Below are positions 6,152 through 39,529 of a stretch of 42,146 bases of DNA, one piece after another. Numbering within the stretch: position 1 is the stretch's first letter; each line of letters starts with the position of its first letter. Where the stretch lies: NCBI GenBank assembly GCA_027451445.1, contig DAIDJG010000175.1, positions 1-42,146 of the forward strand, written 5' to 3'. This DNA is from Singulisphaera sp. (GTDB lineage: Bacteria; Planctomycetota; Planctomycetia; Isosphaerales; Isosphaeraceae). The position numbers were made by a program, and so were the translations under genes. The notes beneath the pieces were generated by a model that was not told the origin of the DNA, did not search any database, and saw only the letters and a list, made by a program, of their open reading frames with translations.

Positions 6152-6485
6152 CCGCCCTCCCCTTTCACCGCGCGTACCCCGAACACGCTAGGACCCGCCA
6201 CCAACCTTACAGCGGAAGTCGGCGCAGCGGCAAGCCGTGCGGGAATGGTGTATTGGACTCCCGTAGTGACACTTCGTTCGGGCGAACGAAAGATTTCGAA
6301 GTTGTTGGTCGGCGCTACCGAAGCCTCACTTCTTGAGGGGATCACAACTGAGTCGCGCGTGACCGGGCGGCACAATCCTTCCCTCCCTCATCAACGCAAG
6401 GAAGATATATAACTCACTGCCTTGGAAAGGGGGGTAGGGGCAATACCGTTCAAATAGTCGTAAAGCTTACGAGCACAGGAAGATA

Positions 6486-6528
6486 AATACTCCCTCCACC
6501 CTTGTGGGGGAGGGCCGGGGTGGGGGGT
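6486..6528. repeat. Degenerate GC-run hairpin motif, left-arm type
   Basis: The stretch reads ACTCCCTCCACCCTTGTGGG, then GGAGGGCCGGGGTGGGGGG. It resembles, with changes, the left arms of the paired GC-run elements at 22086 and 37774. A right-arm-type copy lies at 6902-6938, so the two may be the ends of one older element enclosing the CCCTGAA palindrome. Confidence 0.5.
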
Positions 6529-6597
6529 ATCGCATTACCTGGGGCCGTTCGAACCCCCCGACCCCAACCCTGGCATGTTTAAAAGTCCGCCGCGTGT

Positions 6598-6633
6598 AAC
6601 GTTTTTCTCGCCCACTTCCCCGCGAAAAACGTT
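6598..6633. repeat. Hairpin with perfect 10-bp arms
   Basis: AACGTTTTTC (6598-6607) is repeated in inverted form as GAAAAACGTT (6624-6633) around a 16-nt loop. No gene ends next to it, so it is more likely part of the repeat cluster than a terminator. Confidence 0.6.
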
Positions 6634-6652
6634 GCGCATCAGTGCATTTTCT

Positions 6653-6840
6653 TGGCCCTGAAAGGGCCGGACAGGAAAGCCCAGGGCATCGCCCTGGGGA
6701 ACCGGTGCCTACCTGATATCTCTCCCGCCCTGAAGGGGCCGCGTCTGCCTGGCCCGCCCCTTCAGGGCGGAATCATGTTTTTGTGTCATGCATGCCCAGG
6801 GCGTTGCCCTGGGCTTTCCTGTCTGGCCCTTTCAGGGCCA
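6653..6840. repeat. Nested palindromic repeat (CCCTGAAAGGGCC family)
   Basis: Outer arms at 6653-6698 and 6794-6840 are inverted copies with only a few mismatches; each holds TGGCCCTGAAAGGGCC, ACAGGAAAGCCCAGGGC and a further GCCCTGGG. Inner arms at 6725-6739 and 6756-6770 (CCGCCCTGAAGGGGC) are perfect 15-bp inverted copies. Each outer arm also contains two smaller palindromes. The result can fold as a branched cruciform of about 190 nt. I recall similar sequence families spread through planctomycete intergenic DNA, but copy number cannot be judged from one window. Confidence 0.8.
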
Positions 6841-6901
6841 TGCGCGCAACAGAAATGACGGAACGTGCAACGCCATCCACCGGGACTTTTCAACTTCCCA
6901 C

Positions 6902-6938
6902 CCTGACCCCCCCCTTCCCAAGGGGGGGAGTTATATGT
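6902..6938. repeat. GC-run hairpin motif, right-arm type
   Basis: A C-run, TTCCCAA and a G-run are followed by GAGTTATATGTTG. This matches the right arms at 22250-22297 and 37910-37952, and reads as the reverse complement of a left arm. The C-run/TTCCCAA/G-run core is a perfect hairpin. It lies about 70 bp beyond the recA stop. Confidence 0.7.
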
Positions 6939-7009: not shown

Positions 7010-8083
7010 TCACTCTTCCCCGTCGTGGTCCATCGCCCCGTTGGCACTCCCAGCGCTGTGCGTACCGCGGGTGCTCATGACCCGGGTGGTGATCTCCTGG
7101 GCGAGCTCCGGGTTGTCACGCAGATACTGCTTGGCGTTCTCGCGACCCTGGCCAAGGCGGGTGTCACCGTAGTTGAACCAGGAGCCCGACTTCTCGATGA
7201 TCTTGTCGGCAAGGGCCAGGTCCATCAGGTCGCCTTCGTGGGAAATTCCCCCGGCGTACATCATGTCGAACTCGCACACACGGAACGGAGGCGCAACCTT
7301 GTTCTTGACGACCTTCACCTTCACGCGAGAACCGACGACCTCCTCGCCCTCCTTCACCGGCCCGATCCGGCGCACGTCAATCCGGCACGAGCTGTAGAAC
7401 TTCAACGCCCGGCCCCCCGGCGTCGTCTCCGGACTGCCGAACATGACGCCGATCTTTTCGCGGATCTGGTTGATGAAGACCAGCACGGCCTTCGACCGCG
7501 CGACACCCCCCGTCAGCTTGCGCAGGGCCTGGCTCATGAGCCTCGCCTGAATACCGACGAAACTATCGCCGATCTCGCCTTCGACTTCCGCCTTGGGCAC
7601 GAGCGCGGCTACGGAGTCGACCACGATGATGTCGACCGCGTTCGACATGATGAGCATCTCGGCGATCTGGAGCGCTTCTTCAGCACTCCCCGGCTGGCTT
7701 ACGAGGAGCGATTCGATATTCACCCCCAGCCGCTTGCACCAGGAAGGATCGAGCGCATGCTCCGCGTCGATGAACGCGGCGACGCCCCCCATCTTCTGCG
7801 CATTGGCCACCGCGTGCAGCGCGATCGTCGTCTTGCCGCTCGACTCCGGCCCGAACAACTCAATGATGCGGCCCCGAGGTAGTCCCTTACCGCCCAGCGC
7901 CAGGTCGAGCGACAGGGCCCCCGTGGAGATCCCCTCCACTTCGAGATGACTCCCTTCACCCAGCTTCATGATCGCGCCGGCGCCGAACGTCTTCTCGATC
8001 TGCCCGATCGCATTGTTCAGCGCTTTCTCCTCCGCCGACATCGCCGCCGGCTTGACCTCCGCCCCACCCTGTCGCTTGGCCAC
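7010..8083 (-). CDS. recA: RecA recombinase
   Basis: RecA forms ATP-dependent filaments on single-stranded DNA for strand exchange and promotes LexA self-cleavage. From the GTG at 8083 the product is 357 residues, close to the usual 340-360. Walker A is GPESSGKT (residues 78-85). Other landmarks are [30 protein letters not shown], the loop L1 region [20 protein letters not shown], loop L2 [20 protein letters not shown], and an acidic C-terminus ending DHDGEE. I chose the GTG because GGGAGGGAG ends 4 nt upstream and the protein then begins MAKRQGG. The ATG at 8140 lies upstream of the SOS box and promoter -10, so it would not be on the transcript. thpR ends just upstream, inside the recA promoter. 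Confidence 0.97.
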
Positions 8084-8112
8084 GGCGCTCCCTCCCAAAA
8101 AGTCCCCGAAAA

Positions 8113-8130
8113 ACTGTACGTAAGGACAGT
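8113..8130 (-). promoter_or_regulatory. LexA-type SOS box upstream of recA
   Basis: ACTGTACGTAAGGACAGT contains CTGT (8114-8117) and ACAG (8126-8129) separated by exactly 8 nt, the core of the proteobacterial-type LexA operator. It lies 30 nt before the recA GTG and directly downstream of the predicted -10. This is the position expected for LexA to block transcription. LexA itself is not in the window. Confidence 0.78.
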
Positions 8131-8132
8131 AT

Positions 8133-8160
8133 AGTATCACCTCTTTTCGCGGCGAGTCAA
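8133..8160 (-). promoter_or_regulatory. Predicted recA promoter
   Basis: On the minus strand TTGACT (8160-8155) and GATACT (8138-8133) are separated by 16 nt, a good sigma-70-type match. The -35 overlaps the last codons of thpR. The SOS box begins a few nt downstream. Confidence 0.6.
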
Positions 8161-19757: not shown

Positions 19758-19819
19758 ACGCCCGCAGGCCATCGGGATCGATGGCGTCGGACAACGCTGG
19801 GGCAATGATGAAGATAATA

Positions 19820-19885
19820 ACACTAACCCGAAGCGCGAGCGAGGGATACATATTATCATTCCTCGCTTGCGCATCGGGTTAGTGT
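19820..19885. repeat. ACCCGAAGCGC inverted repeat
   Basis: ACACTAACCCGAAGCGCGAG... (19820-19844) is inverted at 19861-19885 with two mismatches in 25 nt around a 16-nt loop. A related, more decayed copy lies at 35941-36057. It sits 63 bp after the aminotransferase stop and could end its transcript, though no U-tract follows. Confidence 0.8.
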
Positions 19886-19940: not shown

Positions 19941-22016
19941 ATGATGGGGCGTACATCCATGAAACGCTTGAGCCTCGCCCTGTTTGCCCTCATTCCGCTC
20001 GCTTGTGCGCCGAGGATTCAAGGCGCACCACTACCGAAAGCGATCGTCTCGTCTCCGTGCTCCAAGGCTCCGACCATCGATGGCGTGCTCGGCGCCGACG
20101 AGTGGAAGGAGGCGCCCGCACTCAAGTTTGACATGCCGCTGATCCGGTTCAGTCCGAACGGCATCGAAACGCGCCCGTGTGAGCTGCGCGTGATGAATTC
20201 GGCGAATGCCCTTTACGTCGCCCTGAGGGTGCCGGACAAGACGGTCGACAACAGTGTCTCGCCCCTCGTCGCCGACGGGGCCATGTTGGCGTTTGGCTCG
20301 GGACCTCAGATCGCTCCGGGTGACGATCGCAAGGCGATCGCTGGGCCCGTTTACCGTGATAAGCACGTCAAACCCGCGGGCAAAGGCGAAGACGACGACG
20401 CGAAGCAAGACGGCCAGGGCATGCTGGGTCGCGAGTCGGGGATGTGTGTATTCGAGTGGGCCGTGCCGCTTAATTCGGGCGACAAGCAAGACCTCCAGGC
20501 GAAGCCAGGCGACACGATCCGCTTCAATCTGGCCTACTTCGATGCGTTCCAGATTCCGATAACCAAGACCGTCATCGGCAGCATCCATGGCGCACCCCTC
20601 GACCGGGGAGATGCCTGGGGGACACTGCAACTCGCGTCGAACGTGAAGGACGACGGTGGCTCAGCGTTCCAAGGGCCGAGCTGGGTCAAACCGCTGTTTG
20701 AAGGGCTCAAGAGCAGTCCGGCCTCGCGCCTGCATTTTGTCGACGCACCGTTGACGCCGGGCTCGACGTCGTCCAAGGCGCTGCTGTCATTTACCTACCG
20801 TGACGAGCACGGCGCCGAGAAGGAAGGCAAGGCCAAGCTCTACCTGCCGGAGTCCGTCCGCACCGACCCGAAGGCGAAGCGTCCCCTGTTTTTCGCCAGC
20901 GGGTACGAGATGGCCGATGGCATGGACCAAATCTATTCGCGACTCGGATGGATCGTCTCGTCGCCCCGAGAGCTGCCAACCAATCCCTTACTCCGCACCA
21001 TCAACCCCGACAGCGCCCTGCTGCACATGGTGCGTGCGCTCCCGTTCGTCGACGACACGCGCGTGATCATCGGCGGTGGCAGTGCCGGCGGATACATGAC
21101 CTTGATGCAGGCGGCCGAGACCTTCCCACTCGCGGGGGCGATCCCGGACGTTCCGCCCGTGAACTGGGGCTACAACGCAGCCTATTTCTACAAACAGTTC
21201 GACAAGGCTGGTCCCCAGCAGGGGAGCAAGGATGCGAAACTTCCCTTCCTTTTCGCCGTGGCTACTCTCCTCAAGGGTTGCCAGAACGTCTACGGCGCCG
21301 ATTACGATGAGGCGACCTGGTTCGCCCATTCGCCCCTCGCCCATGTTCCCACGATCACGTGTCCCGTCTCCATCTACTGGTCGACCGCCGACATGCTCGT
21401 CCCCATCAACCAGGTCGGTGCGCGTTGGGTCCAACCGTTCGACGCCACGAAATTCCCCGAGGGGTTCACTATGGATCCGAAGTCCCTCATGACGAGTCGG
21501 GACGGGCGGTTGACGCTGCTGGATGTTTTACCGTCGAGTGATTATGAGGTGTTCACACACAAGGTTCCCGCAGGTACGTCGCTGGTGGGCGCAGCGGGGC
21601 CGCACGCCGTGTTTGAGCTGCCAATGAGCGCTGACAAGCTTTGGTCGATCGGGATCGTTGACGAGGGAGCTCCGGAGCCCAATCTCGGACACCGGAAATA
21701 CAACCTCAACCTGAATCGCGCGGGTTTCATCGAGCGAGCCGCCGCCGGCAAGGTCCCCGCCCGCCAGCTCACGCTCGTCAAGCTGGAGCGGCTGATGGAT
21801 CGCTACGCTGGTAAGGAGTGGCTCCCGACTCGACTGAAGCACCTCGATTTCCCCGACAGCGAGCGCGCCGACGTGCTGCGCGGACTGCGGACATACACCG
21901 CCGCCGGCGCGGAGAACGCAGGCACGTTCAGTGCACTTTATGGGCAGCTTCCGGCTGTCAAGCGCGTGTTGGAACCCGAGGTGGTCAAGGAGTTGGAGTC
22001 GGGTAAGTCCCGCTAA
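19941..22016 (+). CDS. Secreted alpha/beta hydrolase with N-terminal CBM9/DOMON-like domain
   Basis: A 691-residue exported protein. MKRLSLALFALIPLACA (starting at residue 7) is a signal peptide, so the ATG at 19959 may be the true start; GAGG precedes the ATG at 19941. Residues about 40-235 resemble a family 9 carbohydrate-binding/DOMON-like beta sandwich (TIDGVLGADEWKEAPALKF, ANALYVALRVPD). The second half is an alpha/beta hydrolase of the prolyl-oligopeptidase/dienelactone type: the nucleophile motif is GGSAGG with S381, and CPVSIYWSTADMLVPINQV matches the strand carrying the acid. The catalytic histidine may be in AAGPHAVFE or LGHRKY; I cannot decide which. It could be a carbohydrate esterase or a peptidase. 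Its place beside sugar-type oxidoreductase genes mildly favours a carbohydrate substrate. Confidence 0.78.
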   Translation: MMGRTSMKRLSLALFALIPLACAPRIQGAPLPKAIVSSPCSKAPTIDGVLGADEWKEAPALKFDMPLIRFSPNGIETRPCELRVMNSANALYVALRVPDKTVDNSVSPLVADGAMLAFGSGPQIAPGDDRKAIAGPVYRDKHVKPAGKGEDDDAKQDGQGMLGRESGMCVFEWAVPLNSGDKQDLQAKPGDTIRFNLAYFDAFQIPITKTVIGSIHGAPLDRGDAWGTLQLASNVKDDGGSAFQGPSWVKPLFEGLKSSPASRLHFVDAPLTPGSTSSKALLSFTYRDEHGAEKEGKAKLYLPESVRTDPKAKRPLFFASGYEMADGMDQIYSRLGWIVSSPRELPTNPLLRTINPDSALLHMVRALPFVDDTRVIIGGGSAGGYMTLMQAAETFPLAGAIPDVPPVNWGYNAAYFYKQFDKAGPQQGSKDAKLPFLFAVATLLKGCQNVYGADYDEATWFAHSPLAHVPTITCPVSIYWSTADMLVPINQVGARWVQPFDATKFPEGFTMDPKSLMTSRDGRLTLLDVLPSSDYEVFTHKVPAGTSLVGAAGPHAVFELPMSADKLWSIGIVDEGAPEPNLGHRKYNLNLNRAGFIERAAAGKVPARQLTLVKLERLMDRYAGKEWLPTRLKHLDFPDSERADVLRGLRTYTAAGAENAGTFSALYGQLPAVKRVLEPEVVKELESGKSR

Positions 22017-22479
22017 CGGGGGATCGCGACCGCGTTGTGCGCGACCGGTCGGCCCACGCGCTCAATTCATTCGTCTCAATGAGACGAACATATTAACTCC
22101 CCCCCTTGGGAAGGGGGGGTAGGGGGGGGGTGGGGAGTAACCGCGGCCGACGGCTCATCGCCGTCAACCGTCTGGTGGATGACCGCCATTCTTTGGGAAA
22201 TGACGAGATCGCGGGCGCCCAACGCCACAGGCCGTGGGCGGAGGCAAAGGCCCACCCCCCCTAACCCCCCCTTCCCAAGGGGGGGAGTTATATGTTCTCG
22301 CCGTCGCGAAGACGAAAATGGCGCACAGGGGTACCGTGAGCCATTCAAACGCGACAACGCGACCCACTCTCAGAGTTGCTCTTGGCCGATTTGGGGCTTC
22401 CGACTAAGATGCACCGCGCCTCGGGAGACCCGCACGCTCGTCATTTCGAAAATCCGTCGCGGGAAAGGCCAAAACGGTC
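22017..22479. other. 463-bp gene-free region holding a paired GC-run element
   Basis: Apart from the 22086-22297 inverted-repeat element I see nothing gene-like. The last 180 bp before the HEAT-repeat gene should hold its promoter, but no convincing -35/-10 pair stands out. Confidence 0.55.
22086..22297. repeat. Paired GC-run inverted-repeat element (212 bp)
   Basis: Left arm from 22086: GAACATATTAACTCC, a C-run, TTGGGAA, a G-run, TA, a G-run and TGGGG. The right arm (about 22250-22297) is its near-perfect reverse complement, ending GAGTTATATGTTC. Each arm also contains its own C-run/TTGGGAA/G-run hairpin and a G-rich tract able to form a quadruplex. About 110 bp of unrelated sequence lies between the arms. 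This is a MITE- or REP-doublet-like layout with no open reading frame of note. Confidence 0.8.
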
Positions 22480-35940: not shown

Positions 35941-36057
35941 ACACTAACCCGACGCGCAAGCTAATGGACATAATGTGATTCTATTGCTCGTAATGCTAAG
36001 CTGAAGCGCAAGTGATAAAACTATTATTATGTCCTCGCTTGCGCTTCGGGTTTGTAT
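35941..36057. repeat. Decayed ACCCGAAGCGC repeat cluster
   Basis: ACACTAACCCGACGCGCAAG at 35941 and CCTCGCTTGCGCTTCGGGTT at 36033 are inverted arms, and a third partial unit (CTGAAGCGCAAG) lies at 36001-36012. The same family forms the tidy hairpin at 19820-19885. It sits between the Ldh2-family start and the stop of the next gene upstream on the map. Confidence 0.7.
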
Positions 36058-36088
36058 TATGGTTCATATCATGTATGCGTAAGCTATT

Positions 36089-37762
36089 CTATTTCTTCTC
36101 CTCGCTCCGAACGACAGTAAGCCAGGCTTGTGTCGTCGAGACGTCGAAGCCCGCGATCGGAATCTGCGCCAGCCGAGTGCGCGGCGGCTCCTCGTTCGAC
36201 GCTCCGCGGACGCGGAACGGACTGGAGACGGGCGGTCCGCCTGGTTTGGAGGTCAGCGAGAGCGTCACCTTGCGCGACGAGTCCCCTTTCGGCTCGGACC
36301 GCAGAGGAGCGGCTTCGACACCGTCCGGCAGACCCTCGATGCGCACGTCGATCGGGCGGTCGTAGCCGCGCTTGCGCTCGACGGTGACCGGAATCTCGAG
36401 CGGCTTGCCGGGAGTGAGCGTGAAACGATCGGCGGCGAGGGAGAGGCGATAATCAGGCTCGGGGATCGACGCCGTAAGCCGATAGACATAACGGTCGCCC
36501 CCCTGGCTGTTGAGGTCGCGCACGGTGAGCCGGTACGTGCCATCCTCAGAGGCGGAAAAAGTCAGCTCGCCGTCGGCTTCTTTGCCCGCATCGTCGACCT
36601 CAGCCAGATTCTTGCCCGCGCGGTCGGTGATGCGCAGAACGGGGTCGAGAGGCGCACCGAGCGAGCGCGACTCGATCCGGAAGATGACCGCCTGACCCTT
36701 CTTCGCCGAGAACTCGTAGACATCCACGTCCCGCGCCGGGTTGATGCGGCCCGTGACCGTCGCGGGCACGGCCAGCGACTGAGGATGAGCGTAGTCATTC
36801 GGCTCATGCTCGACGAGGGCCGCGTGGGTCTCGAGGCGGACTTCGAACGCGTTTGCGAGTTGCGGGTGTGCAACGAAGGCCGTCTCCGCGTTGGCATCGG
36901 TCGGTACGGTGAGTCGCGTGGCTTCCGAGGGTACGTTCCAGCCGAACACTTCGACCTGGCCGGGCTCAGCACGCGAGACTGCGAGCGGATAGCTATGGTC
37001 GAGAAAGCCGCCGGTCGTCAGGGTGAGGCGGTAGAGGAACGCGTTGCCGCCTGCAAAGCCAATCGTGCTGTCCGGCGTGGCGGGGAACGCGAACAGGCGA
37101 ACGTGGTAGGTACCATCTGCCGGTACGGCGAAGGCAAGCTGGGGGTCGAAACCATGTTCGTCGTCGTTCTGCGCGAGCACGATCCCATCGGGGCGCGCGA
37201 TCTGGAGGACGGCATCCATGGGCGACTTGAGCTGACGGTTGGCCTCGACGGAGGCGACAAGCGTCTCGCCCTTCTTCAATGTGAGTGCAAACTCATCGAC
37301 AGCGCCTCGCTTGGTGAGCTGGCCGTTGACCGTGACCCGTGCAGTGTCGAGAACCTGTGGACCCTCCTTCGGCATGCTGGCGACCACCTCGGGGAGGTTG
37401 CCGACGATGAACGGTTTGAGGGCGGTGGCGCCTTCGTCATCGTAAAGGCGGATCCAGTGCACGCCGAGGGCCGCGTCGGGCGCGATGTCGATCGTGAGCT
37501 TGCCTTTGTCGTTCTCCGGTTTGATTGTGAGACCGGCGGGCTCGGACCAGCTCTGGATCGGCCAGTGGTCGAAGGATCCCGTCAGTGACACGGCGACAGA
37601 CTTCCCTTGCGGACCGCCGGGGGGAAAGAGTTTTTCGAGCGCAGGGGGCTTCGACCAAGCGAACGAACCCGGCAGCAGTACGAGGGCGATGGCGAGGAGT
37701 TTTGATGGCGCGCGTCTTCGGTTTTGCGTCTGCGGTTGGTGGTCGGCGCAGCTTTCGAGCAA
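36089..37762 (-). CDS. Exported pre-peptidase C-terminal (PPC)-type domain protein
   Basis: About 557 residues from the chosen start. A signal peptide is visible (KLLAIALVLLPGSFAW), followed by SKPPALEKLFPPGGPQGKSV, the usual opening of planctomycete proteins of this type. Two PPC-like beta domains follow: one around DEFALTLKKGETLVASVEAN with AVLQIARPDGIVLAQNDDEH, the second around VDVYEFSAKKGQAVIFRIES with RLTVRDLNSQGGDRYVYRLT. An Ig-like C-terminal part follows (FTLTPGKPLEIPVTVERKRG). The start is uncertain. TTG 37762 has GAGG 8 nt upstream and leaves the signal peptide near the N-terminus. The frame stays open to an ATG at 38062 that overlaps the DUF1501 stop, but that extension is read through a GC-run repeat element. 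It is the last gene of the DUF1549-DUF1501 operon; function unknown. Confidence 0.8.
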   Translation of the reverse strand: MLESCADHQPQTQNRRRAPSKLLAIALVLLPGSFAWSKPPALEKLFPPGGPQGKSVAVSLTGSFDHWPIQSWSEPAGLTIKPENDKGKLTIDIAPDAALGVHWIRLYDDEGATALKPFIVGNLPEVVASMPKEGPQVLDTARVTVNGQLTKRGAVDEFALTLKKGETLVASVEANRQLKSPMDAVLQIARPDGIVLAQNDDEHGFDPQLAFAVPADGTYHVRLFAFPATPDSTIGFAGGNAFLYRLTLTTGGFLDHSYPLAVSRAEPGQVEVFGWNVPSEATRLTVPTDANAETAFVAHPQLANAFEVRLETHAALVEHEPNDYAHPQSLAVPATVTGRINPARDVDVYEFSAKKGQAVIFRIESRSLGAPLDPVLRITDRAGKNLAEVDDAGKEADGELTFSASEDGTYRLTVRDLNSQGGDRYVYRLTASIPEPDYRLSLAADRFTLTPGKPLEIPVTVERKRGYDRPIDVRIEGLPDGVEAAPLRSEPKGDSSRKVTLSLTSKPGGPPVSSPFRVRGASNEEPPRTRLAQIPIAGFDVSTTQAWLTVVRSEEKK

Positions 37763-37773
37763 CGGAGTCGCCT

Positions 37774-37952
37774 CATAACTCCCCCCCTTGTGAAGGGGGG
37801 GTAGGGGGGGTGGGCATTGGCCGTCCGATGCCGGCAGTGCAGCCCCAAGCCACTCTCCTGCGCTTGACGGTTGAGACGCGCGGGACCAACTGAATACGTG
37901 CGCCGACTCCCCACCCCCCCAACCCCCCCTTCCCAAGGGGGGGAGTGATAGG
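37774..37952. repeat. Paired GC-run inverted-repeat element (179 bp)
   Basis: Left arm from 37774: CATAACTCC, a C-run, TTGTGAA, a G-run, TA, a G-run and TGGG. The right arm (about 37910-37952) is its inverted copy, ending GGGAGTGATAGG. It is the same family as 22086-22297 with a different spacer. It lies between the DUF1501 stop and the probable start of the PPC-type gene. Confidence 0.8.
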
Positions 37953-38061
37953 TGCTCGTGTTGCGGATGGACGATTGCCCGTCCGATATGCGTAACCCGA
38001 CCGTAAACCGCCCTAAACGAGAGCAGGGGAATGCTTCTCATGCCGCGTACGAATTGGTGCA

Positions 38062-39381
38062 TCAACCCATGAGCTCGGCAATCGGGTTCGGATCGCTCAC
38101 GAGGTGAGCGGGGCGTCCGTTCGGATTGTAATAGATCTTGCCCGGGTCGATGCCGAGCTTCATGTAGATCGTCGACGCGAAGTTCTCGGGCGAGAGTATG
38201 CGCTCGACGGCTGAGTATCCCTTCTTATCCGTGGCCCCGACGACCTGGCCGCCGGGCGTGCCGCAGCCGGCGAACAGGACGGACATGGCGTTCGACCAGT
38301 GGTCCCGCCCGGCGTCCTTGTTGATCTTGGGGGTCCGGCCGAACTCGCCCAAGGCGACGACGAGCGTCGAGTCGAGCAAGCCACGCGCATCAAGGTCCTG
38401 GATCAGAGCGGCGATGGACGCTTCGAAGGCGGGGAACCGTTTGTCGAACGAATCGAACAGCGACGTGTGATGGTCCCAGCCCCCTTCGTTGAGCGTGATG
38501 AAAGGCACGCCGGCCTCGACCAGCCGGCGGGCCAGCAGGCAGCGCTGGCCGAATGCGTTGCGCCCGTAAGCGTCGCGCACCGTGTCGGGCTCGCTCTGAA
38601 TGTTGAACGCTCGCTGCGCCTCGGCCGACGAGACGAGGTTGTACCCCTGCTCGTAATAGTCGTCGAGCGCATTGACCGGATCGCCCGCCGCCTTGTCGGC
38701 AATTCTCTGGAACCGGTCGACGCGCGTCCGCAGGTCGCGCCGGGCGTCGAACCGCTCGTCCTTCAAGCCTCGGGGAAGGGCGACGTCGCGCACGCGGAAC
38801 TCGGTGGAGCTGGGGTTATCGGCCAGGACGAAAGGCGCATAACGCGCACCGAGGAAGTTCGGCCCACCCGAGCGTGACATGCTCGGCATCGTGAAGTACG
38901 GCGGCAGGCCCCCCTTCGTTCCGCGCTCATACGCCGCAACGGATCCGAGGCTCGGATGGAAGCTGACGAACGCCCCGCAACCGACGGGGATCCGCGGCGG
39001 CGCACCGGTCATCATGTAGTGGTTGCCGGCGCCATGGTTCCCTTGCTCATGTCGGATCGAGCGGACAATCGCGAGCTTGTCGGCGATGGCGGCGAGCCGC
39101 TTCACGTGCTTCGAAAAGCGCACGCCGGGGACGGCGGTCTCGATGGTCCCAAACTGACCACGGATCTCAGCGGGCGCGTCCGGCTTGGGATCGAACGTCT
39201 CATAGTGGCTCGGTCCGCCGTCCATCCAGATCAGAATGCAGCTCGTCGGCCGAGCCCCGGCCACCGCGGCCTGGCCACGCAGCCGTAAGGCGTCGACCAA
39301 CCCGCCTCCGATCAAGGCACCCAGGCCGAGCCGCAGACAGTCGCGACGAGTCACAGACTCACAACTCTTATGAATCGCCAT
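38062..39381 (-). CDS. DUF1501 protein with Tat-type leader
   Basis: A 439-residue member of DUF1501, a sulfatase/alkaline-phosphatase-like family abundant in planctomycetes and of unproven activity. The N-terminus has a twin-arginine leader, TRRDCLRLGLGALIGGGLVD. Landmarks: CILIWMDGGPSHYETFDPKP, RHEQGNHGAGNHYMMTGAPP, ITLNEGGWDHHTSLFDSFDK and VVALGEFGRTPKINKDAGRD. Asp and His in these motifs occupy the metal-site positions of the superfamily. ATG 39381 has GGTGGAG 6 nt upstream; a TTG six codons earlier is in frame but unsupported. It follows the DUF1549/DUF1553 gene in a likely operon, an arrangement seen in many planctomycetes. Confidence 0.92.
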   Translation of the reverse strand: MAIHKSCESVTRRDCLRLGLGALIGGGLVDALRLRGQAAVAGARPTSCILIWMDGGPSHYETFDPKPDAPAEIRGQFGTIETAVPGVRFSKHVKRLAAIADKLAIVRSIRHEQGNHGAGNHYMMTGAPPRIPVGCGAFVSFHPSLGSVAAYERGTKGGLPPYFTMPSMSRSGGPNFLGARYAPFVLADNPSSTEFRVRDVALPRGLKDERFDARRDLRTRVDRFQRIADKAAGDPVNALDDYYEQGYNLVSSAEAQRAFNIQSEPDTVRDAYGRNAFGQRCLLARRLVEAGVPFITLNEGGWDHHTSLFDSFDKRFPAFEASIAALIQDLDARGLLDSTLVVALGEFGRTPKINKDAGRDHWSNAMSVLFAGCGTPGGQVVGATDKKGYSAVERILSPENFASTIYMKLGIDPGKIYYNPNGRPAHLVSDPNPIAELMG

Positions 39382-39407
39382 CGAATGCTCCACCGGCAAA
39401 AAAGAGG

Positions 39408-39524
39408 TTTATCCGCAGATGTCGCAGATGAACGCAGATTAAATTGAATTAGGAAATGCAAATAATTCCATTAAAAATCTTTCCAATGTTTTTCTCTGCG
39501 TCCATCTGCGACATCTGCGGATAA
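39408..39524. repeat. CGCAGATG inverted repeat
   Basis: TTTATCCGCAGATGTCGCAG, then ATGAACGCAGA (39408-39438), is inverted at 39495-39524 with few mismatches, around an AT-rich loop of about 55 nt. It fills the gap between the DUF1549/DUF1553 stop and the DUF1501 start. As a transcript it would form a 30-bp hairpin between two operon genes, which could attenuate or protect the message. Confidence 0.8.
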
Positions 39525-39529
39525 ATCTC

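Follow-up and report, generated by a model that had tools for sequence, protein, structure and literature searches.

DUF559 genes are located inside inverted pairs of triplex-type arms in bacteria of many phyla, which is new here, and an arm pair of this kind, judged by its base order, constitutes the element at 22086–22297 of the window, i.e., the whole 42,146-nt stretch of Singulisphaera sp. DNA that was analyzed. The original prediction took this element for a transposable REP doublet or MITE whose arms are the conserved part. Its high copy number, its absence from a same-genus genome, and its several nesting contexts support the view of a MITE-like, transposable doublet in which the arms are conserved. 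The REP/RAYT part of the earlier reading was not supported, and the gene found between such arms encodes DUF559 instead. A literature search, which covered few subscription journals, gave no recognizable link of DUF559 to these repeats. Since inverted arm pairs flank its gene in many bacteria, DUF559 is a good candidate for spreading the arms.

DUF559 genes inside arm pairs

Five PF04480 (DUF559) matches were obtained in the source genome, two of which (L150 and L151) lie between exact arms of the window family, the right arm of L150 being invaded by another repeat. Two further genes (L148 and L149) are placed beside a different GC-rich arm type, with an inverted-flank score of 36 for L148, and the fifth match is a fused protein. 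The closest DUF559 match elsewhere, among the matches listed, belongs to an Isosphaeraceae bacterium. For other genomes, the best 80 of 571 DUF559 relatives were taken, of which 72 were scored using 250 bp on both sides and 8 were dropped. Inverted flanks scoring at least 35 were detected in 42 of these 72 loci from many phyla, compared with 0 of 496 shifted controls; because close relatives (Hymenobacter, Nitrospira) are among the loci, p-values do not come from independent samples. A second set, mostly of the same phylum and without L149, whose flank was too short, exhibited inverted arms in 16 of 21 loci (13 of 18 when the source genome is omitted) against 0 of 80 controls.

Of the 72 loci (best 80 of 571), 33 had a triplex-type motif facing the DUF559 gene on each side, and 57 had one on at least one side. 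The corresponding values were 0/496 and 16/496 for shifted positions, and 1/190 and 16/190 for gene-anchored controls taken at other genes of these loci. Motifs of the opposite orientation, which are expected because doublets adjoin the DUF559 gene in places, occurred on both sides in 7/72 and on at least one side in 32/72 of this set, and 15 of its 72 loci contained no triplex-type motif by the criterion used. Further arms elsewhere in the genome were found for 38 of 50 DUF559 loci, which is not an unbiased rate because the 50 were hand-picked from the 80 after the arm scores had been seen, leaning to arm-bearing loci. Co-occurrence within the phylum was modest, with arms above the reversed-pattern control in 8 of 18 strong-DUF559 genomes versus 20 of 101 without (hand count); the generic arm pattern of both these surveys covers only some arm types.

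The setting of the gene and of the arms varies. Evenly spaced inverted arm pairs without a DUF559 gene are present in Hymenobacter, and some DUF559 genes adjoin methylase or defense genes, not arms. The gonococcal gene is flanked by direct repeats containing an arm, motifs are left on just one side of the E. coli gene (ycjD), and the three Azospirillum plasmids compared all carry the same DUF559 locus. Phages gave just two weak DUF559 relatives. On two cyanobacterial plasmids (L265, L267), DUF559 adjoins genes annotated DUF1156, unlike the arm-bounded setting. On a Deinococcus proteolyticus plasmid (L268, 1300–2030), the arms flank DUF559 with their tails directed outward rather than toward the gene.

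Anatomy of the arm and its copies in the window

The element at 22086–22297 consists of two inverted arms, as had been predicted, with 36 nt at 94% complementarity and 43 nt at 79%. Each arm begins with GAACATAT(T)AACT, which is followed by the expected palindrome C7-TTGGGAA-G7, a short linker, and a G-rich tail facing the middle. On the plus strand, the left arm is composed of the outer box GAACATATTAACT (22086–22098), the palindrome (22099–22119), and the G tail (22120–22135), the last comprising the linker and a putative third strand. The family-B interior, or spacer (22136–22250, plus strand), leads to the right arm on the minus strand, which contains the tail (C strand, CCCACCCCCCCTAA, 22251–22264), the palindrome (22265–22285), and the outer box AGTTATATGTTC (22286–22297). 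The whole family-B repeat, from outer flank through arm, interior, and arm to outer flank, extends over 22018–22370 of the plus strand with ends that resemble the TAGAGCGG..TTGC terminal repeat, and its start coincides with, or immediately follows, the stop codon (22014–22016) of the ORF upstream. No known RNA family in Rfam was matched in the window.

Arms beside DUF559 genes of other genomes have a G tail, mostly set off by a 3-nt linker, that repeats the stem's purine strand in mirror order: G is matched by G, and A by either A or T. This mirror code was fitted perfectly by 47 of 119 DUF559-adjacent arms, and the mean mirror score was 0.498, compared with 0.302 (sd 0.016, with 0.347 as the highest of 500 shuffles) for tails permuted among arms. 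At a fixed linker, the 69 arms whose tails are G-rich had G opposite stem G in 395 of 432 cases and A or T opposite stem A in 139 of 177. Because the tail mirrors the purine stem, the arms agree with a known class, the intrastrand triplex motif (TM/PIT/BoxC). The window-type arm has a 3-nt linker and follows the triplex base code over 9 triads with a single mismatch, and would fit the same class of hairpins. The G-tract had been suggested to form a quadruplex, and it may do so, but the mirror relation of tail and stem, including the A/T positions, fits an intrastrand triplex better. Holder et al. 2015 (PMC4666352) reported such motifs (BoxC, PIT, and TM) in more than 260 genomes, linked them to instability, and described an E. 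coli motif that is stable as a triplex in vitro. That paper states that mobility functions were never found around them.

The source genome comprises 10.88 Mb in 622 contigs. A genome-wide search for the arm, proposed as a check of the original prediction, returned many further copies, as the palindrome gave 115 + 114 matches with up to 3 mismatches (approximately 229 copies) against 0 + 0 for the reversed pattern. The window alone holds 10 matches versus 0.03 expected. The palindrome was detected in 5 of 98 other genomes, mostly of the same family and class, at 1 to 7 copies with other centers, and it had no match in the same-genus genome among those 98. The approximately 229 copies here and the few in 98 other genomes indicate that the palindrome was expanded in the source lineage.

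A second copy had been assigned to the same family at 37774–37952, and its arms do match those at 22086–22297, one with a single change of the center. It lies in a family-A repeat on the minus strand (37717–38015), whose right end, TAGGGCGGTTTACG.. on the reverse strand, is located at 38015 and whose left end is decayed; the left palindrome (37781–37801, plus) has the center GTG in place of GGG, and the right one spans 37923–37943 (minus). A minus-strand ORF with a PPC domain (36089–38065), directly behind a DUF1501 gene, is open across this entire repeat, which may be read into its N-terminus. The decayed copy proposed at 6486–6938 merged two things. An intact palindrome of the family is present at 6907–6928 (minus), and its decayed partner is found near 6410–6434 (plus), where a decayed left arm is followed by the recurrent junction TAGGGGCAATACCGTTCAAATAG; the stretch at 6492–6580 (plus) is a decayed doublet of a different triplex-type arm, CCCTCCCCCC..GGGGGAGGG, as in the E family. 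Within the same 6.4–6.9 kb composite, another inverted pair (46 nt, 96%) with CCCAGGGC..GCCCTGGG hairpins occupies 6653–6840, directly downstream of recA (7013–8137, minus strand). The window also contains ACACTAACCCGAAGCGCGAGCGAGG hairpins at 19817–19885 and 36033–36060, which are the interior of a terminal-repeat family denoted D, and an inverted repeat of the kind ATCTGCG..CGCAGAT at 39404–39529 (40 nt, 90%), which is unrelated to the arms.

The spacers had been called unrelated, and this was not the case. A total of 55 distinct inverted doublets were extracted from 100 stretches fetched by place and from search-derived stretches, and their interiors, mostly 121–122 or about 145 bp long, link into two groups of 46 (A) and 9 (B), to which the window copies starting at 37781 and 22099 belong, respectively. 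In an alignment of 30 family-A and 9 family-B copies, the arms were almost invariant and the interiors partly conserved, a near-identity of arms that is biased because the copies were found via the palindrome itself. Arm invariance as a sign of conversion or selection was dropped for this reason, and no conclusion was drawn from it. In copies found by the terminal repeat, the arms are mostly intact, as in L277, L278, L279, and L283 where seen. One arm has one change in L300; one is of altered run length and the other not recognized in L307; the arm is truncated in L309; and the outer flank matches with the arm absent in L303 and L316.

Terminal repeats around the window copies

Conserved sequence in the A and B copies runs approximately 70–90 bp outward of the arms to a common TAGAGCGG(T/A)TNACG..TTGC terminus, so that the arms are nested inside and are not the outer ends of the repeat. 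The window copies are accordingly repeats of approximately 300–350 bp that end in TAGAGCGG inverted repeats, the lengths being 311 bp for A (L278) and 348 bp for B (L279). The same terminus bounds three families devoid of the window arm, namely D (226–232 bp in the copies displayed), F (roughly 272 bp), and E (roughly 277 bp); the interior of E is a doublet of another triplex-type arm. Most full copies have TA at both ends. Terminal inverted repeats are common to many short non-coding copies here, as in MITEs, and since the terminus bounds both the A/B copies and arm-less families, the window copies look like MITEs with a doublet nested inside. No empty site was found for A or B copies. The spread of A and B need not involve DUF559 because these copies carry the separate terminal repeat.

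The copies could then be nothing but miniatures of a TA-target transposon with TAGAGCGG ends, in which the arm pair is an inert passenger and DUF559 plays no role in the source genome. This explanation draws on the 146 + 129 genome-wide matches of the common 24-nt terminus (3 + 1 for the control), and on D, E, and F, which share their ends with A and B without containing the window arm. It is at odds with the presence of the same arms outside A and B, where they surround DUF559 genes, form outward-facing pairs, and belong to family C with its CTTACGCG ends. At 30 loci, neither a transposase nor a coding copy was found between the terminal repeats. A third setting of the arms, ending in CTTACGCGTTAAC, was recorded along with the outward-facing pairs. 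The arm–DUF559 units of other phyla would also be left unexplained, and we regard the explanation by terminal repeats alone as rather unlikely.

Proposed exchange at palindromes and known systems

An AlphaFold2 model of the DUF559 protein was obtained at a mean pLDDT of 80.6. Foldseek gave the best match to the endonuclease-like 3hrl (E 8.7e-6), which a sequence profile of DUF559 also finds, and then to I-Bth0305I (3r3p, E 2e-3); Vsr was weaker (E 0.25) and TnsA also lower. The protein is hence modeled with a Vsr/homing-type nuclease fold. E65, D67, and H71 (acidic residues and histidine) are conserved in the four DUF559 proteins of the source genome and are candidates for catalytic residues. 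YcjD-like proteins were placed in the PD-(D/E)XK superfamily by 2005 (PMC1189080).

Presence and absence of the unit were compared between related species. The joined flanks of the Aeromonas sanarellii DUF559 unit match 36 of 37 genus genomes, its own included. The loci of 29 relatives were examined, and in the 21 with both flanks reliable the gap is 142–252 bp, compared with 831 bp in A. sanarellii. The best-matching single-arm relative (L326) has one arm at the site with both flanks aligned; A. sanarellii has two direct copies of this arm, which enclose DUF559 and an inverted arm. A decayed single arm is present in two others (L324, L325). Among 29 Hymenobacter loci, the gap is 47 bp long in L359 and L360, which lack both the arm and DUF559, L386 carries a solo palindrome, L369 contains DUF559 with four arms, and most others carry other inserts. 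A family-B repeat of the source genome (L064) has one palindrome instead of two. The Aeromonas, Hymenobacter, gonococcal, and L064 cases agree with a unit that inserts into a solo palindrome or is lost to leave one, and the choice between insertion and excision in Aeromonas would follow from parsimony. In E. coli, most of the ycjD stretch is present in 3361 of 5426 genomes; a clean empty site was rejected there, as the two other genomes examined at the locus carry different genes beside sapF. The stretch beside sapF in E. coli is described as a known efflux operon locus (PMC12817139).

These observations can be arranged into a model. A small mobile unit would be enclosed by inverted triplex-type arms. 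In its coding form it would have a single gene, that of the DUF559 nuclease, and its empty forms would be the spacer doublets, including that of the window. DUF559 would recognize and cut the arm palindrome and thereby cause movement, with palindromes as the exchange site: insertion of a unit into a solo palindrome would duplicate the palindrome, and excision would leave a palindrome behind. In the source genome, doublets may have been captured inside TAGAGCGG-ended MITEs, leading to the further spread of A and B. What counts against this model is that only two DUF559 genes lie inside the same arms, compared with approximately 229 arms in the source genome. Further points against it are the separate terminal repeat of A and B, the modest co-occurrence within the phylum, the DUF559 genes beside methylase or defense genes, the 15 loci devoid of a motif, and the one-sided motifs at ycjD. 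The arm anatomy and the link between DUF559 and arms are well supported, whereas movement by DUF559 and exchange at palindromes are inferred. On balance, we consider it somewhat probable that DUF559 moves units bounded by arms into palindromes that already exist, and out of them again, and that A and B copies additionally spread as terminal-repeat MITEs.

DUF559 might instead serve as a nuclease of the host, or as an accessory one, with triplex-type hairpins as its substrate in repair, restriction, or silencing, and adjoin them without moving them. The Vsr-like fold of the model and the defense-like neighborhoods of some DUF559 genes agree with such a role, as does the Caulobacter DUF559 protein VsrA, which was tied to the SOS response when the cytosine methylase is missing (PMC12907096). 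The arms, however, are arranged as in a transposon, as an inverted pair facing the gene, and related species differ in having or lacking the entire unit, so that a stationary nuclease appears quite improbable. REPINs moved by a RAYT are hardly credible: high-copy inverted hairpin doublets and nine Y1_Tnp genes (PF01797 search) do exist in the source genome, but the RAYT with the same ends that had been anticipated was not among them, none of the nine loci having an arm within the fetched flank, and the GTAG/CGTC tag is absent at the hairpin foot, where the outer box is AACT and the inner one TT (82 places) or TA (62).

Returning to the exchange of units by DUF559, a broader proposal is that the DUF559 units of approximately 0.5–0.7 kb represent a new class of bacterial mobile DNA, for which a Vsr/homing-type nuclease and a pair of triplex-forming arms suffice, with entry and exit at palindromes and with TM/PIT/BoxC motifs as non-autonomous relics. 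This is offered tentatively, as a possibility toward which we are more doubtful than confident. Triplex-type repeats are known in many bacteria without a gene that explains their spread, and DUF559 between the arms gives access to a direct test. E. coli K-12, where ycjD and triplex-type motifs are both present, would allow such a test.

Four known systems are comparable. TM, BoxC, and PIT motifs, as described in PMC4666352, are likewise hairpins with a mirrored purine third strand that are intergenic, multicopy, and often in inverted pairs, and E. coli motif no. 23 of that work is nearly the motif beside ycjD. They differ in that no mobility genes were reported near them, whereas a DUF559 gene lies between motifs in the present case, and in that MITEs with terminal repeats enclose the window copies. 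The REP/REPIN and RAYT system (PMC3733652) likewise has hairpins in inverted doublets, and the same genome harbors a related form that carries a gene, but here there is no tag and no Y1 transposase with arms, and the gene is that of a PD-(D/E)XK-type nuclease. The fold of the DUF559 model is shared with Vsr and with I-Bth0305I (PDB 3r3p); the latter is annotated as a mobile-intron protein, in contrast to the free-standing DUF559 gene between hairpin arms. Finally, the window copies resemble bacterial MITEs in their length of 300–350 bp, terminal inverted repeats, lack of coding capacity, and many copies, and are distinguished from them by a triplex-arm doublet as the interior; no parent transposase was found at the 30 terminal-repeat loci.
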